Of a stretch of 40,426 nt of DNA, positions 12,589 through 19,843 are shown one piece after another. Origin of the DNA: Candidatus Jettenia ecosi (lineage in GTDB: Bacteria; Planctomycetota; Brocadiia; Brocadiales; Brocadiaceae); NCBI GenBank assembly GCA_005524015.1, contig SULG01000024.1, forward strand, positions 1 through 40,426, in the 5' to 3' direction. Position 1 is the first letter of the stretch; each line of letters opens with the position of its first letter. The translations under genes were made by a program, and so were the position numbers. Under the pieces are notes generated by a model that saw only the letters and a list, made by a program, of their open reading frames with translations, was not told the origin of the DNA and did no database searches.

Positions 12589-14790
12589 TTAAGGGTTATT
12601 TAAATCTGTCACATGAAACTTTTTATTCGATATGCTACTCAGAAAATCTGCTTCTTGCTCTTCTTTGATAATAATAGTTGGTTTTAAAAGAATGATTAAA
12701 TTTGACTTTCTGTTATTCTTCAAACTTCGGGAAAACAGCCTCTTTAGCAGAGGTATTTTCGATAATACGGGAATGCCCGTTGTCTGATCATCCTTGTTAA
12801 TAGAACCAAGTCCGCCAATAATAAGCGTGCCTTTGTCAGGCACACAAACTGTTACCGATACCTGGGAAACATTTATTGTCGGCAATTGAACCGTTGAGGT
12901 AGGAGGTATGTTAACAACCCCTGTGCCTCCAGTCGTAAGGGTTGTATCGGTGCCAACTCCGGTAAAAGTAAACGATTCTATTGTCTCAATTTGAAACACG
13001 GAAGGAGTTACTTCCAGATAAATGTACTTTCTGTCTGCACTCACAATAGGTCTTACATCAAAGGTTGTTCCTTCGGGAATTGTGCCAATAACAGGAGTTA
13101 CGACACCTTCGGCAACGGAAGTACTTTGAATATAATTCGTGGTTTTAACAACAGCAATATTACCACGCTGGGTATTAGAGAGTGTTATTCGCGGTGATGT
13201 AAGTATTTCAGAATCTTTGCTTTCCTGGACAGCGCGTATAAATCCTTTTAGCATACTATTATGCAAGATGGAATAATTGAGCGAAAGCCCGCTGCCAGCG
13301 ACTAATTCACTAATATCTGTTTCAGCGCCTGTATCGATAGAGGTATCATCACTAAAAAATTTACTGAAATTGCTGCCTATATCCTCAAGAAATTCATCGG
13401 TAACGGAAATAAAACGGGCTTCAATATTTACCTGAAGGTTCTGTGATGACCTTAAAGAAGCCAAAAGGTTCTCAATCTGCTTATGAGCGAATTTACTATT
13501 AACCACTACGAGGTCTCCCGGATGACCCGCCCTTGCAATGATACTTCCTTCACCCTGACCAGGAATATTCATGTGCCGTTGACCATTGGATGTAGCAGCG
13601 CCAATGACATGAGTACGATATGACCACGATGCTGGTTCGATAGTGGTGACAATCAATTCGATCAGGTCCGATACCCGTTCCGAAGGATCTTTTGTTTTAA
13701 CCGTTTCTTTTTTTCGCATGCTCAATTGAGAGGAAGATGCTGTAATATCAAATTCAAGGGGATCTTTATCATCCAGATTGATTAATATATCCCTTACATC
13801 ATAGACTCGTAGTTCCATTTTTTGTTTATAAATATGCAAGATATCCCCTTCAATCACATATTCATATCCCTTTGGCAGGATATACTTCAAAGCTACTCTT
13901 AATGGCACATCTTTCAGTTTTAAGGTAATAAGAACATCTCCTGCTTCTGAATCAATAATCATATTAATATTTGTCTTTTCCCTTAAGAAGATAATAACAT
14001 CCTTCAAAGGTGTATCTAAAAACTCAAAGGAGATGATCATATTCAGGGCATCTTCAATTTCCTTTGGAGGGGCGCTTTCCACAGGATTGAGATTCATTTG
14101 AAGTTGTTTTGTCTTTCTTTTATTTTCTTTTACAATCTTATCTAAATCGGGAAGTATGCGATCTGAAGCATCTTTCCATTGTTCTTTTGCAGGAAATCTC
14201 AGGATTTCTTGGTGAGGGATGGATAATTCTCTCAGATATTCGTTGCTTTTCAACTTTTCTTGCGCATCGATAGTTTTTAAATATTCTGTAATATGCTCAT
14301 GCCTTATATCATTTAGCTTTCCTTTTATATATAACACTTTTTTATTCAGAGGGTCTATCTTAAGCATGAAATCTGATATTTCTGCAGCATCATCATATCG
14401 CCTCTCGTAAATGGCAGTGTACACATCCCCCAGTAAAGCTGATATATCTTTATGCGCAGGAGGAGGTGCAGCTATCGTTTCTTTTTGCGCGTCAATGTTG
14501 CTCTGTATTTTAGATAGCATCTTCTTTCCCTCAAGGCATTGTCGTGATTCTTTCAGTAATATTTGCGCCTCTCTATTGGCAGGTTCTAACAAAATAGCTA
14601 ATTCCAGCGCCTCAATAGCATTCGGATAATCTTTTAGCTCAAAATATATTTTAGCAATCTTAAGATAGTGATTGTTGAGCGTCGTAGATTCTGTTTTTGA
14701 AGCATCCTGTGCGCCTATTTGATTCGATGCAGAGAGCAACAAAACTATGTTTAAGATAATGATTAAGATTATATTTACCATATTCTGCAT
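12589..14790 (-). CDS. Secretin (PilQ/GspD-like outer-membrane channel), Amuc_1098-like
   Basis: A 733-residue exported protein. Signal peptide LIIILNIVLLLSA; tetratricopeptide-like helices about 35-150; a secretin/TonB short N-domain (FLDTPLKDVIIFLREKTNIN, then LKDVPLRVALKYILP); and the secretin pore domain with VPDKGTLIIGGLGSINKD, GIPVLSKIPLLKRLFS and NLIILLKPTII near the C-terminus. It would form the multimeric outer-membrane gate for a type IV pilus-like or type II secretion machine. The TPR front end, and its position after PilM-, PilO- and Amuc_1099-like genes, match the pilus-like operon of Akkermansia better than Gsp systems. Confidence 0.9.
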   Translation of the reverse strand: MQNMVNIILIIILNIVLLLSASNQIGAQDASKTESTTLNNHYLKIAKIYFELKDYPNAIEALELAILLEPANREAQILLKESRQCLEGKKMLSKIQSNIDAQKETIAAPPPAHKDISALLGDVYTAIYERRYDDAAEISDFMLKIDPLNKKVLYIKGKLNDIRHEHITEYLKTIDAQEKLKSNEYLRELSIPHQEILRFPAKEQWKDASDRILPDLDKIVKENKRKTKQLQMNLNPVESAPPKEIEDALNMIISFEFLDTPLKDVIIFLREKTNINMIIDSEAGDVLITLKLKDVPLRVALKYILPKGYEYVIEGDILHIYKQKMELRVYDVRDILINLDDKDPLEFDITASSSQLSMRKKETVKTKDPSERVSDLIELIVTTIEPASWSYRTHVIGAATSNGQRHMNIPGQGEGSIIARAGHPGDLVVVNSKFAHKQIENLLASLRSSQNLQVNIEARFISVTDEFLEDIGSNFSKFFSDDTSIDTGAETDISELVAGSGLSLNYSILHNSMLKGFIRAVQESKDSEILTSPRITLSNTQRGNIAVVKTTNYIQSTSVAEGVVTPVIGTIPEGTTFDVRPIVSADRKYIYLEVTPSVFQIETIESFTFTGVGTDTTLTTGGTGVVNIPPTSTVQLPTINVSQVSVTVCVPDKGTLIIGGLGSINKDDQTTGIPVLSKIPLLKRLFSRSLKNNRKSNLIILLKPTIIIKEEQEADFLSSISNKKFHVTDLNNP

Positions 14791-14827: not shown

Positions 14828-15628
14828 TCAATGAGTTAAAGAGGTATTCGTTAGCGGATGAACAATAACTGTTTCCGTCCCCAGATTTACAAATTCTCCT
14901 ATCCACAAGTCATACGATTTGCCTTTTTTATATTCAAACACAATTTTTGAAGCTGAAATCATCTCTGCCTCCTCTGTAAGTGAGGTACCTAAGAAATTAT
15001 TCTCTTTATCCCGAAGAATACTTGACCTTTTCATCATAAGCGGCTTTTGCGCAAAAGGAGCTATTTCGATCAACTTACAACGAGTATCAAAATCTATTGT
15101 TTCTCCTCTGATTGTCTTTTTCTCACCTATGGTTTTCCCCTTTTCGACGATAAAACTTTTCGTCCACCAGACATCCTTATACAATCTCCTGACCTGAATC
15201 AAGGCTAGTTCCGGAGTACCTCCTTTAAAGATAAATTCTCTATCTCCCGGGACATCAACCTTTAAATGCGGATAGGCTTGTAATTCTGCTTTCTTTAATA
15301 AGTCTTCCATTGTAATATCCGAGATTGATTCTCCTTTTGCTGGCTTACGAAAGACTTGGAACTGTTGCAGGAAATTTGCCTTGGGCGGCGTTGCGAATCG
15401 CAATTCGAGCTGCATTGCCTCTTCGAATTTTGTACTTATTGCCGGAGGTCCGCTCATCTTTAGTTTTCTTTCGATAACATCCGATAGTGATTGTAATTTT
15501 GTATTAACCTTATGCGTTTTTCTTTTTAATATCATACTGGCAGAGAACACCGTATAGATAAAATAACCTACCGCAATGCCGAGAACAAATTTCTCAACAT
15601 ATTTAAATAGAAAGTTCTTTGGGCTCAT
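14828..15628 (-). CDS. Pilus-complex inner-membrane protein, Amuc_1099-like
   Basis: One transmembrane helix near the N-terminus (FVLGIAVGYFIYTVFSA) is followed by a periplasmic region. A linker and a folded C-terminal part contain a beta-rich KIVFEYKKGKSYDLWIG stretch. I assign the name from operon position and architecture, not from a diagnostic motif. A GTG 48 nt upstream (15676) is possible, but the ATG giving MSPKNFLFK places the membrane helix normally. Neither start has a strong Shine-Dalgarno. In type IV pili the equivalent slot is held by PilP, which links the inner-membrane PilN/O to the secretin. Confidence 0.65.
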   Translation of the reverse strand: MSPKNFLFKYVEKFVLGIAVGYFIYTVFSASMILKRKTHKVNTKLQSLSDVIERKLKMSGPPAISTKFEEAMQLELRFATPPKANFLQQFQVFRKPAKGESISDITMEDLLKKAELQAYPHLKVDVPGDREFIFKGGTPELALIQVRRLYKDVWWTKSFIVEKGKTIGEKKTIRGETIDFDTRCKLIEIAPFAQKPLMMKRSSILRDKENNFLGTSLTEEAEMISASKIVFEYKKGKSYDLWIGEFVNLGTETVIVHPLTNTSLTH

Positions 15629-15682
15629 GATTCTATAAAAATAGCAATAAAAATTTATATTTCCTGCGGTAAGCACTCTTAC

Positions 15683-16588
15683 TTATGTTTTATAGTCAAT
15701 AACATACGCATCAATAGTAACACCAATCACGGGATACGATACGGAATGGTTAGCATCCTGGATTAAAACATCTCCATCTTCGTCTGGTGGATCAGGATTA
15801 AGATTTTTATCTGTACTTACGATACTAATGCCCTCGATAACAAACGGAATATCCGATTTAAGAATTTCATACAAGAGGAATTCTATACAATCTGCCCGTA
15901 ACTCAACGGTAAGGGTAACAGGCACAACGGTATAAAGATGCGCAAAAGAGGGATCGTACGAGGATGATACTTCCCGGAAACGAATCTCTTTGATTCCGGT
16001 AATTCCTGTGGTATTTGTGGCAACATGAACGAGCGATTCTATGATCCAGAATTTTTTTTGTACTGGTAAGATAGTATCCCACACCGGGATATCATATCCC
16101 CAGCTTTGAAATGGCAAAACACCTTCACTCATAGCAATATTATGTGTTCGTATCTTTGCTAATAATGCGGAAGTTCTTTTTACATACTCATTCTTCCAGA
16201 GCGCCTCATCCTCTATTTTAGTAAAACCTTTTTCTGTATCTCCTATTACAAAAAGGGTTTCTAGCAGATCATCTCTTCCTTTAAGAAAGGATCTGCATTT
16301 TCCAATTTCTTCTTCATACAGATCTTTTTCTAATTTTTTTGATTCAATCCATGTATTGTTGTAAATATTTTTTTTTAAAGTATATTTTTCCAATGCAACG
16401 GATAAATCCTCCAGGGCTTTGTGACTTATTCTGTATTGATTTGAGAGTGGATAGATATAGACAAATAACAGAATAATCAAGCTAAGAAAACCCATGCTAA
16501 TGGCTATCCAAAAAACTAATCGTCCGGAAAAAATACCCGAAAAGACATTCTTTAATTGTGAGAAATTCAGGTCTTTGCCAATATTCAT
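15683..16588 (-). CDS. PilO/Amuc_1100-like pilus assembly protein
   Basis: 301 residues with an N-terminal transmembrane helix (FWIAISMGFLSLIILLFVYIYP). It is followed by a coiled-coil region (about 55-120) and an alpha/beta domain containing repeated strands such as VPVTLTVELRADCIEFLLYEIL. Short cytoplasmic tail, single helix, coiled coil and ferredoxin-like fold is the PilO layout, and the size matches Amuc_1100-type proteins. It should dimerise with a PilN-like partner in the periplasm. A repeat-containing gap of 162 nt separates it from pilM. Confidence 0.7.
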   Translation of the reverse strand: MNIGKDLNFSQLKNVFSGIFSGRLVFWIAISMGFLSLIILLFVYIYPLSNQYRISHKALEDLSVALEKYTLKKNIYNNTWIESKKLEKDLYEEEIGKCRSFLKGRDDLLETLFVIGDTEKGFTKIEDEALWKNEYVKRTSALLAKIRTHNIAMSEGVLPFQSWGYDIPVWDTILPVQKKFWIIESLVHVATNTTGITGIKEIRFREVSSSYDPSFAHLYTVVPVTLTVELRADCIEFLLYEILKSDIPFVIEGISIVSTDKNLNPDPPDEDGDVLIQDANHSVSYPVIGVTIDAYVIDYKT

Positions 16589-16750: not shown

Positions 16751-18523
16751 TTATGATCTCTCAGAGGAAGTTGAAGTTCCAGGTACTGCTAACAGATTTT
16801 CCGTTTCCAACTGTATCTCATGGTATGATTTTATAATCCAACGTATTTCAAAGCTGATATAACCTTCCCGTCCATCCTTATGTTCTGTCTGACGACATGA
16901 GCCTGGAACAATTTCTACATTTTTGAATGCCGGAACTTTTTGATCAAAAAGGGTTACCCCCTGAAGGGGTTTCAGGATATGTTCTTCTATAAAACCCACA
17001 CTCGGATCTCTGCTTTCCCCTTTTATATCCATAAGAAGCAGTTTTTGGGTAATTGCAGATTTTACCGGCGCGTTTATCTTTTTCGTTTGAAAAAATGCTG
17101 ATGATGCCTGTTTCTCACTATTTCCAATCTTTACGGTATCCGCATCTATCCATGAGGATTGTATACTCGTTACGGATACATTATCGGGTATCAAAGCCAG
17201 TAAGGTATCCAATACTTCCATCCAAAAAAACCGGGAAGAATCAAGAGAGGAGATAAGATCCAGCGCAGATTTGCTTGTTTGTGCCTGGGCTTCAACATCC
17301 TTATATCTCCCTTCAAGCCCTTTTATATTTTGCAATATTTTTTGGTGATAACTCTGAGAGTTATTCAGATGATTAATTTGCATATGTAATCCACAGTATT
17401 GAACAATAAGTGATAAAGCAAAACAACCAATACTGGCTGCGGCATAAGGCTTTTTCTTAGATATCTCTACCGCTTTGATTAATTCTGGTGGTAATAAGTT
17501 TATCTGTATTCGGCCTAATTTTAGGCCTTGCAGCGCAAGTCCTAAAGCAGTGTTTAAATTCACCAGGTTCTCAGTAAAATAGGCAGGATTAATAGTATCT
17601 GATACTTTTAAATTATTCAGAACATTAAGAACTTTTACCTCATATTTAAAATTATCGGCTATAAAGTTTATATTGAGTGGATCTTTAAATTTGCTTCCCG
17701 TTAAGAGAAGAGTTTTAAAGCAAACAGTATCTTTCGTTAAGGATTTATAATATTCCATTGATCTCTGTATTTCCTTCACAAGATCAGTATTTATTGTGGA
17801 AAAGGAGACGCTTCTCAACCAAAGACGTAAGTTGTCAACAATGATCAAATCCGTATTTTCAGTTTCCCCATGTATGATTATCGTTGCGCCTCCGATGTGC
17901 TGATCAAAAAGAGCAAGGTTGTAGATAGCCAGGGGTGTAACCTGTAAGGCGTTTATCCTGGGTTTAAGGGATGCAATATTTGTCAATATATAATCAAGCG
18001 TTGTTCTTTTTGATGCGAAAAGTCCAATTTCCATGCTTTCCATATCAGGACTTATATCAGATAGCTGCTGGTAGTCCCATATAATATCTTTAAAATCAAA
18101 AGGAATTTGTTGTTTTGCCTCGTAATTAACAATATCTTTTACTTGCTTCCGGTCTACAGGGGGAATGCTGATAAATCGGGACAATATAAAATGTCCTGGG
18201 ATAGATACCAGAATAGTATCTGACCTGGTAATACGATGCTTTGCCAGAAAAGTTTGAACAGCCTCTTGAATGTGTGTTGATTGTAAAAGATCTCCATTCG
18301 GCGGTACTGTAGAATATTCAATAACATCAAAGTCTTCCACCTGTAAACAACCGGATACTTGCGCAATCTTTACTGCCTTAAGAGCATAGCCACCAATGTC
18401 TAAGCCCCATGCAGTTTTTGTCTTATTCTCTTTAAAGGCCTGTGAGAATTTTCGAACCTGCGGCAGCTTCCGAATAGGTAAGCTAAACTTTTTGGAATCA
18501 ATTCGTAAAGAAGGAAGTTTCAT
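16751..18523 (-). CDS. pilM: PilM-PilN-like fusion (actin-fold ATPase plus membrane segment), Amuc_1101-like
   Basis: 590 residues. The N-terminal 350 residues are a PilM/FtsA actin-like ATPase: AWGLDIGGYALKAVKI phosphate loop, VSIPGHFILSRFISIP, IVNYEAKQQIPFDF. A transmembrane helix follows (AASIGCFALSLIVQYCGL), then a coiled-coil periplasmic part (MQINHLNNSQSYHQKILQNI and on) and a C-terminal fold, as in PilN. A single chain would therefore replace cytoplasmic PilM and bitopic PilN. It is the first gene of the operon, 50 nt after the riboswitch terminator. No clear Shine-Dalgarno is seen before the ATG. Confidence 0.88.
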   Translation of the reverse strand: MKLPSLRIDSKKFSLPIRKLPQVRKFSQAFKENKTKTAWGLDIGGYALKAVKIAQVSGCLQVEDFDVIEYSTVPPNGDLLQSTHIQEAVQTFLAKHRITRSDTILVSIPGHFILSRFISIPPVDRKQVKDIVNYEAKQQIPFDFKDIIWDYQQLSDISPDMESMEIGLFASKRTTLDYILTNIASLKPRINALQVTPLAIYNLALFDQHIGGATIIIHGETENTDLIIVDNLRLWLRSVSFSTINTDLVKEIQRSMEYYKSLTKDTVCFKTLLLTGSKFKDPLNINFIADNFKYEVKVLNVLNNLKVSDTINPAYFTENLVNLNTALGLALQGLKLGRIQINLLPPELIKAVEISKKKPYAAASIGCFALSLIVQYCGLHMQINHLNNSQSYHQKILQNIKGLEGRYKDVEAQAQTSKSALDLISSLDSSRFFWMEVLDTLLALIPDNVSVTSIQSSWIDADTVKIGNSEKQASSAFFQTKKINAPVKSAITQKLLLMDIKGESRDPSVGFIEEHILKPLQGVTLFDQKVPAFKNVEIVPGSCRQTEHKDGREGYISFEIRWIIKSYHEIQLETENLLAVPGTSTSSERS

Positions 18524-18572
18524 ATTACTGTTATGAAAGAGAAAGATTTCCGTGCATCAGAGTAAATTCTAT

Positions 18573-18630
18573 AAAAACAAAAAAGCCTTACTCCGAAAAC
18601 GTGTATACAAACAGTTTCGGCAGTAAGGCT
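18573..18630 (-). terminator. Riboswitch expression-platform terminator of the pilus operon
   Basis: On the minus strand AGCCTTACTGCCGAAAC pairs with GTTTTCGGAGTAAGGCT, followed by TTTTTTGTTTTT. The 5' arm is a near copy of the aptamer 3' arm (GCCCTACTACCGAAC), so alternative pairing between the aptamer and terminator is plausible. Confidence 0.8.
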
Positions 18631-18654
18631 CTTGTTTGTTTTATCTGTATTTAT

Positions 18655-18780
18655 CATGTTCGGTAGTAGGGCTATCTTTAATTCATAGCAGAGTGCATCC
18701 TTATGCGTCTCTGCCAGTATGGTTAAAGATCCTTTACTTTGCGTCCCCTGATCACTCAGGGTTTGCCTTTATCGTTCTGT
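18655..18780 (-). ncRNA. Cyclic-di-GMP-I (GEMM-I) riboswitch aptamer
   Basis: Canonical on the minus strand: AAAGGCAAACC, hairpin CCCTGA-GTGA-TCAGGG with a GNRA tetraloop, GGACGCAAAG, TAAAGGATCTTTAACC, then a long variable hairpin (GGCAGAG...CTCTGC). It ends AAAGATAGCCCTACTACCGAACATG in order. These are the receptor, tetraloop and ligand-junction elements known for the Vc2-type aptamer. It lies between a near-consensus promoter and a terminator, 130 nt before the pilus ATPase gene, so the operon should respond to c-di-GMP. Confidence 0.9.
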
Positions 18781-18801
18781 ATCTATGATCTAGTGTTTGC
18801 T

Positions 18802-18830
18802 TATATAACATCCGTAATGTTCCAAGTCAA
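18802..18830 (-). promoter_or_regulatory. Sigma70 promoter of the pilus operon
   Basis: Minus strand TTGACT, 17-nt spacer, TATATA. The start would fall near 18795, about 15 nt before the aptamer. It lies downstream of miaA, so the pilus operon is transcribed independently. Confidence 0.8.
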
Positions 18831-18904: not shown

Positions 18905-19843
18905 TCATGTATTTACCTTACCGGTAAATTGCTCAAGTACCCTTTCTGACAGACGTGTTATATCATTATCCGGGGATACATGAATCCAATGGATGCCTGA
19001 AAAACTCCGGAACCAGGTCATTTGCCTTTTTGCAAACCAGCGCGTTCTTTTTTTCATTACCTCTGTAGCCTCATAAAGGGTATATTTCCCGCTGAAATAA
19101 TTAATAATCTCTTTGTATCCAAGCGCCTGAGAGGCCTGTTTACTTAACCCTGATGGATTATGCAATAAAGTCCGTACTTCATCTATAAGTCCACGAAGAA
19201 GCATACGGTCTATACGTGCTTCTATACGCTTATACAAGATATCACGATCGTGTTCAAGAGCAACTATCAGACAATCGTATTTCGGATTCTTATGGCCAAA
19301 TTGAGTTTGAAAAGAAGAGATGCGCTGCCCTGTCGTCTTATATACCTCCAGCGCCCGGATAACCCTTTTTTGGTCATTCGAGTGTAGCTTCGTGGCAATC
19401 TCGGGATCTACCTCGATAAGTATTTTGTGAAGGTAATCGGAACCTTTTTCTTCGGCAACAGATCTTAAGTAGTTCCGGTATTCCCAGTCCGCCGGCGGCC
19501 CCTCAAATAAACCGTCTGCAATAGCCTTTAAATAAAGAGCTGTTCCACCTACAACCATACATGGCTTGCTCTGTTGATAAAGTTTGGAAATAACTCCTTC
19601 TAAATCTTTCACATATTGTCCTACACTATATTCCTCCCACGGCTCTACAATATCAATTAAATGATGCGGAATGGTATTTCTTGCGATACGGGAAGGTTTT
19701 TCTGTGCCGATATCCATACCCCGATATACCAACATAGAGTCAGCGGAAACTATTTCAGCGCCAATACTCTCTGCAATCTTTAATGCAACATCCGTCTTCC
19801 CGCTCGCCGTAGGTCCTGTAAGTATCCAAATAGGAATAGCCAT
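18905..19843 (-). CDS. miaA: tRNA dimethylallyltransferase
   Basis: Adds the dimethylallyl group to adenosine 37 of tRNAs reading UNN codons. All landmarks are present: P-loop GPTASGKT (10-17), SADSMLVYRGMDIGTEKP, the HLIDIVEP motif, VVGGTALYLKA, NDQKRVIRALEVYKTTG, the ALGYKEII block and the arginine/lysine-rich TRWFAKRQMTWFR near the end. The length of 312 is normal. No clear Shine-Dalgarno precedes the ATG. It is the gene upstream of the pilus leader but separated from it by a promoter. Confidence 0.96.
   Translation of the reverse strand: MAIPIWILTGPTASGKTDVALKIAESIGAEIVSADSMLVYRGMDIGTEKPSRIARNTIPHHLIDIVEPWEEYSVGQYVKDLEGVISKLYQQSKPCMVVGGTALYLKAIADGLFEGPPADWEYRNYLRSVAEEKGSDYLHKILIEVDPEIATKLHSNDQKRVIRALEVYKTTGQRISSFQTQFGHKNPKYDCLIVALEHDRDILYKRIEARIDRMLLRGLIDEVRTLLHNPSGLSKQASQALGYKEIINYFSGKYTLYEATEVMKKRTRWFAKRQMTWFRSFSGIHWIHVSPDNDITRLSERVLEQFTGKVNT

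Follow-up and report, generated by a model that had tools for sequence, protein, structure and literature searches.

A c-di-GMP-I riboswitch with a probable OFF-type terminator ahead of a pilM operon in the anammox bacterium Candidatus Jettenia ecosi

The window analysed here, a stretch of 40,426 nt from Candidatus Jettenia ecosi, carries on its minus strand an operon that begins with a gene for a PilM-like protein of 590 aa (16751..18523). The protein matches PF11104 (1.3e-16), solved structures of PilM (1.7e-25), and the Amuc_1101 family (3.9e-48, under the family cut-off). The next gene (15683..16588, minus strand) encodes a 301 aa Amuc_1100/PilO-like protein (p301) with a membrane helix, a coiled coil, and a ferredoxin-like domain; its AlphaFold model (pLDDT 67) had the Amuc_1100 crystal structures as the top Foldseek match (8e-7, probability 1.0), followed by PilO. 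The other members are a conserved 282 aa protein (p282; 14828..15676, minus strand) with orthologs in L093-L095, for which a structure search of the model gave no confident match, and a secretin of 733 aa (12589..14790, minus strand; PF00263, 2.8e-26). Upstream of pilM, and outside the controlled unit, lies miaA (18905..19843, minus strand; TIGR00174, 1.3e-91), a conserved neighbour whose order with pilM is kept in relatives. Relatives retain the order comEC-miaA-pilM-p301-p282-secretin within the stretches compared. The initial annotation had labelled this an Amuc_1098-type operon. The label is reasonable in that genes for a PilM-like protein, an Amuc_1100-like fold, and a secretin are found together; however, the curated NCBIfam cut-offs for Amuc_1101 (164.7 versus 650 bits) and Amuc_1098 (65 versus 750 bits) were missed, and the secretin is closer to MshL/PilQ than to Amuc_1098. 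Genes for T2SSE-type ATPases occur at other places in the genome, which makes it plausible that the operon serves a pilus or secretion machine.

The region between miaA and pilM contains a plausible sigma-70-like promoter (18802..18830, minus strand), composed of TTGACT (18830-18825), a spacing of 17 nt, and TATATA (18807-18802), with an extended -10 TG at 18810-18809. This is the -35/-10 pair that had been read earlier at this site, and similar boxes recur in the orthologous leaders, as TTGAC(A/T) with a TATATA-like or TAAGAT-like -10 occupies the same place in five of six, the window counted; leader L073 has a comparable pair farther upstream. A consensus promoter scan missed the site because its rule demands T as the last -10 position.

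Downstream of the promoter, an Rfam covariance search of the whole window returned one match only, to the c-di-GMP-I (GEMM-I) family RF01051 at 18777-18659 of the minus strand, scoring 59.5 bits (gathering score 35; E 2.7e-9) and spanning the full model (1-87). The score, well above the threshold, agrees with the GEMM-I aptamer proposed for this strand, and all of the motifs named for it were located: GGCAAACC at 18767-18760, the GTGA tetraloop at 18755-18752, GGACGCAAAG, and AAAGATAGCC...ACCGAA. The P2 hairpin, CCCTGA-GTGA-TCAGGG (18746..18761), was delimited from the Rfam structure, the 5' strand of P3 (AGTAAAGGATCTTTAA, 18723..18738) from the Rfam alignment and the fold, and the native P3 3' arm with the pocket strand (AGCCCTACTACCG, 18661..18673) from the Rfam alignment. 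Canonical pocket letters are kept in the GGC, GCAAAG, and ACC strands, which we take to correspond to positions G20, A47, and C92 of the Vc2 structure, and these letters are conserved over three genera. Across the six orthologous pilM leaders, compensatory pair changes were observed in P2 (two) and P3 (one), and helix pairing is kept in 95.8% of cells, compared with 31-55% in slid controls. By covariance model, the element is a genuine member of the c-di-GMP-I riboswitch class, and would be expected to bind c-di-GMP.

The GGC variant of the class, RF03167, was ruled out for the window, as the match (58.3 bits) falls below the gathering score of 59 and the sequence has A where the variant consensus has G, at the A47 position. 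Orthologous pilM leaders that score 59-65 against RF03167 also have A there. A47-type anammox aptamers, namely the window element (18777-18659) and those of L059, L060, L068, and L070, score at or just above the threshold of the GGC variant, so that RF03167 can mislabel canonical c-di-GMP-I members.

The aptamer is followed by an intrinsic terminator, with 50 nt left between its end and the start codon of pilM (18523). The terminator stem (18630-18584, minus strand), whose folding energy is about -22 kcal/mol, is formed by a 5' arm, hereafter T (AGCCTTACTGCCGAAA, 18615..18630), delimited from the sequence and from duplex energies against 45 control terminators, and a 3' arm, hereafter H (18584..18600); the U-tract (18573..18583) comes next. 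Both the strength of this terminator and its distance from the PilM-like gene had been anticipated by the initial annotation. The T arm is a near-copy of the native 3' arm of the aptamer and is complementary to the 5' strand of P3 and to AAGGC of the pocket. A consensus terminator scan missed 18630-18573, probably because the loop exceeds 8 nt, the limit of the scanner, and called P2, read on the plus strand, a terminator.

All three genomes of the window's genus, along with G003 and G012, carry a riboswitch in the interval from miaA to pilM, a placement that extends to two Brocadiaceae genera besides the window's, and in a Loosdrechtia genome (G005) one is found in front of pilM. The miaA-pilM gap is about 280-400 nt in the carriers where it was measured; in most other family members the two genes abut or lie close to each other, with no RF01051 match in the 1.5 kb upstream. 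A search of public genomes for PilM gave no hits with a single protein query and 25 hits with an alignment query. Among the nearest relatives are contigs from Candidatus Loosdrechtia aerotolerans and from Candidatus Kuenenia hertensis (Brocadiaceae), which supports the earlier description of the genome as anammox-like. The deep forks of the PilM tree are without resolution, and it is compatible both with one gain followed by losses and with several gains. In the Kuenenia-like regions L088, L090, and L091, and in L089 (g8), a GEMM-I element lies upstream of a set of helix-turn-helix, AAA ATPase, TPR, and CvpA-like genes; this set precedes miaA-pilM, placing the elements several kb upstream of pilM.

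The genome as a whole has 28 RF01051 matches (L001-L028), 26 of them above the gathering score, and between 1 and 56 were counted in relatives of the family. Nearly all genomes outside the order carry 0-3 matches in a sample of 392 Planctomycetota genomes, in which ten candidates per genome were scored and high counts are lower bounds. Clostridioides difficile 630, whose c-di-GMP riboswitches number 12 of class I and 4 of class II, is said to have a particularly large number (PMC6366702); by this covariance count, 28 copies is unusually large for a genome. GGDEF domain matches (nine) are far fewer. One GEMM-I element precedes a response regulator-GGDEF-methyltransferase protein (L004:1501-3087), a possible case of feedback on c-di-GMP synthesis. 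Many copies (L020-L028) have long, near-identical insertions within P3 (GTGGACAGTGTTCGTGAACAGTGTCAG...), which suggest that GEMM-I spread by duplication inside the genome. The literature searched, with most subscription journals outside its coverage, contained no treatment of c-di-GMP riboswitches in anammox bacteria, and within it the earlier remark that use on such an operon in an anammox-like genome is little described holds.

On reading the sequences, two terminator designs were recognised among the leaders of this genome, and their description is new here. The first layout, seen in about a dozen GEMM-I leaders other than the window's, uses the 3' arm of the aptamer itself (AGCCUUACUGCCG) as the 5' arm of the terminator, so that a formed aptamer would exclude termination, an ON design. 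In the second, a terminator with a separate 5' arm follows some 30-50 nt past the aptamer and can therefore form beside an intact aptamer, an OFF design. The window belongs to the second layout, its terminator 5' arm AGCCUUACUGCCGAA almost copying the native arm AGCCCUACUACCGAA some 30 nt after the aptamer. The second layout stands ahead of the PilM operon, the genome's only DUF1559 prepilin (L009:1501-2518), and polysaccharide export, sugar transferase, and glycosyltransferase genes, while the first is located mainly ahead of genes for secreted proteins and enzymes. For key sites, the layout was taken directly from the sequence by eye; the automatic classification mistook the look-alike arm of the window for the native arm, and its second version missed many bulged terminators. 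A further set of copies, some near each other (L001, L002, L003, L005, L008, and L029), precedes a histidine kinase and secreted proteins of the right-handed beta-helix type. These copies have a CAGCAC segment, for which GUGCUG, directly upstream of the start codon, is a possible pairing partner. As this segment faces the ribosome-binding region, a third group of leaders (L001, L002, L003, L005, and L008) seems to act on translation.

Folding of the window leader showed that the T-H terminator can form together with an intact aptamer. The duplex between T and the 5' strand of P3 has an energy of -8.9 kcal/mol, equalled by none of 45 unrelated terminator arms, and in five of six pilM leaders this duplex is better than all 45 controls. 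Leaders of the Kuenenia type, which are of other sequence (P3 AUGGGUCUU, T AAGACCCA), retain the complementarity, at about -16 kcal/mol versus -6.4 for controls, and in 14 of the 16 leaders the T-P3 duplex exceeds the ligand-free aptamer in stability. In the window, the ligand-free aptamer is favoured by 2-3 kcal/mol over the state in which P3 pairs with T, so that the energy model alone predicts a small fraction of molecules in the latter. In the ensemble of RNA that still lacks H, the prediction pairs about half of the T arm with the AAGGC pocket strand, a pairing stronger than that with P3, though modest against control arms, 9% of which do as well. The P3-T duplex as sole antiterminator is thus weakened for the window, where the ensemble favours pairing with the pocket strand. 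Folding support for an OFF switch is strong in the Kuenenia-type leaders and marginal in the window, and common descent of the dispersed copies could explain part of the resemblance of T to the aptamer.

Considering these results, we favour, with reasonable though incomplete confidence, a c-di-GMP-I riboswitch whose transcription-termination platform switches the pilM-Amuc_1100-like-p282-secretin operon OFF. From the putative promoter, the RNA would start near 18795, and the aptamer would then fold and bind c-di-GMP. The ligand-bound aptamer would retain its own 3' arm and pocket sequence, leaving T free to pair with H and stop transcription before pilM. In the ligand-free state, T would pair with AAGGC of the pocket strand (18769-18765) or with the 5' strand of P3, the terminator would be delayed, and RNA polymerase would read into pilM. 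Bound ligand would also block the pairing of T with the pocket, so both routes predict the same OFF outcome. We infer from this arrangement that c-di-GMP represses the pilM operon, high levels lowering expression of the pilus machine and low levels allowing it.

This OFF switch has to be weighed against an aptamer that binds c-di-GMP but stands before a nearly constitutive terminator, and so attenuates at a fixed level and switches weakly or not at all. The low energy of the terminator (about -22 kcal/mol) would suit such an element, as would the fact that, for the window and for most leaders related to it in sequence, the ligand-free aptamer is more stable than P3 paired with T. In C. difficile 630, 5 of 16 such riboswitches were found to be non-functional (PMC6366702). 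However, the complementarity of T to the aptamer exceeds that of controls and is kept in divergent pilM leaders, and pocket letters are kept across three genera, so we regard fixed attenuation as rather unlikely. An ON switch, with c-di-GMP raising pilM expression, is improbable: in the window, a terminator with a 5' arm of its own follows the aptamer at about 30 nt and can form with the aptamer intact, so that binding would not remove it, even though about a dozen other GEMM-I leaders of the genome have the ON layout and the precedent on a pilM operon, that of Geobacter metallireducens, is an ON switch (PMC9262584). Still less probable, and hardly to be expected, is another cyclic dinucleotide, such as 3',3'-cGAMP, as the ligand. 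At the position that we equate with G20 by our own assignment, the window and all five orthologs have G and not A. It is a change of G20 to A that makes GEMM-I accept cGAMP (PMC6274999), although the GEMM-I-type pilM riboswitch of G. metallireducens does sense this molecule (PMC9262584).

In a broader perspective, which we put forward tentatively as somewhat short of an even chance, Brocadiaceae anammox bacteria may have a large RNA-based c-di-GMP regulon with tens of riboswitches per genome, in which the same aptamer is wired ON, where its 3' arm doubles as a terminator arm, or OFF, where a separate look-alike arm stands behind it; in the genome of the window, pili and polysaccharide genes would be on the OFF side. 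Aggregation into granules is basic to how anammox bacteria live in nature and to their use in industry, and to our knowledge little is known about how these bacteria control their surface structures. The pilM riboswitch and some 27 other matches, set against nine GGDEF domains, provide a directly testable list of c-di-GMP targets for organisms in which both cultivation and genetic manipulation are difficult. In addition, the two terminator layouts offer a natural series for how one aptamer becomes an ON or an OFF switch.

The riboswitch class is known, with a precedent for GEMM-I before pilM in Geobacter, and the setting described here is seemingly largely undescribed. The window element shares with the RF01051 class a full-length match, the canonical pocket letters, a P2 with a GNRA tetraloop, and a position upstream of a surface-appendage operon, and differs in the long P3 insertion of the window's genus, the look-alike terminator arm, and being one of 28 in its genome. 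The operon has in common with the pilus-like Amuc_1098-1102 cluster of Akkermansia the PilM-like gene, the Amuc_1100-like fold, and the secretin; it differs in falling below the NCBIfam cut-offs for Amuc_1101 and Amuc_1098. The pilM riboswitch of G. metallireducens, which likewise combines a GEMM-I-type aptamer and a terminator before a pilM operon, is an ON switch for cGAMP whose aptamer and terminator are mutually exclusive (PMC9262584), whereas the separate terminator and the pocket letter G of the window predict OFF control by c-di-GMP. In Cd1, the flgB riboswitch of C. difficile, an OFF switch, the antiterminator is formed by the aptamer 3' arm and a switching strand (PMC9262584, PMC6366702). 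As in Cd1, the class I aptamer of the window can coexist with the terminator, by folding, and OFF logic is predicted, with an antiterminator that is marginally stable; unlike in Cd1, its switching strand resembles the aptamer 3' arm and would pair with 5' sequences of the aptamer.
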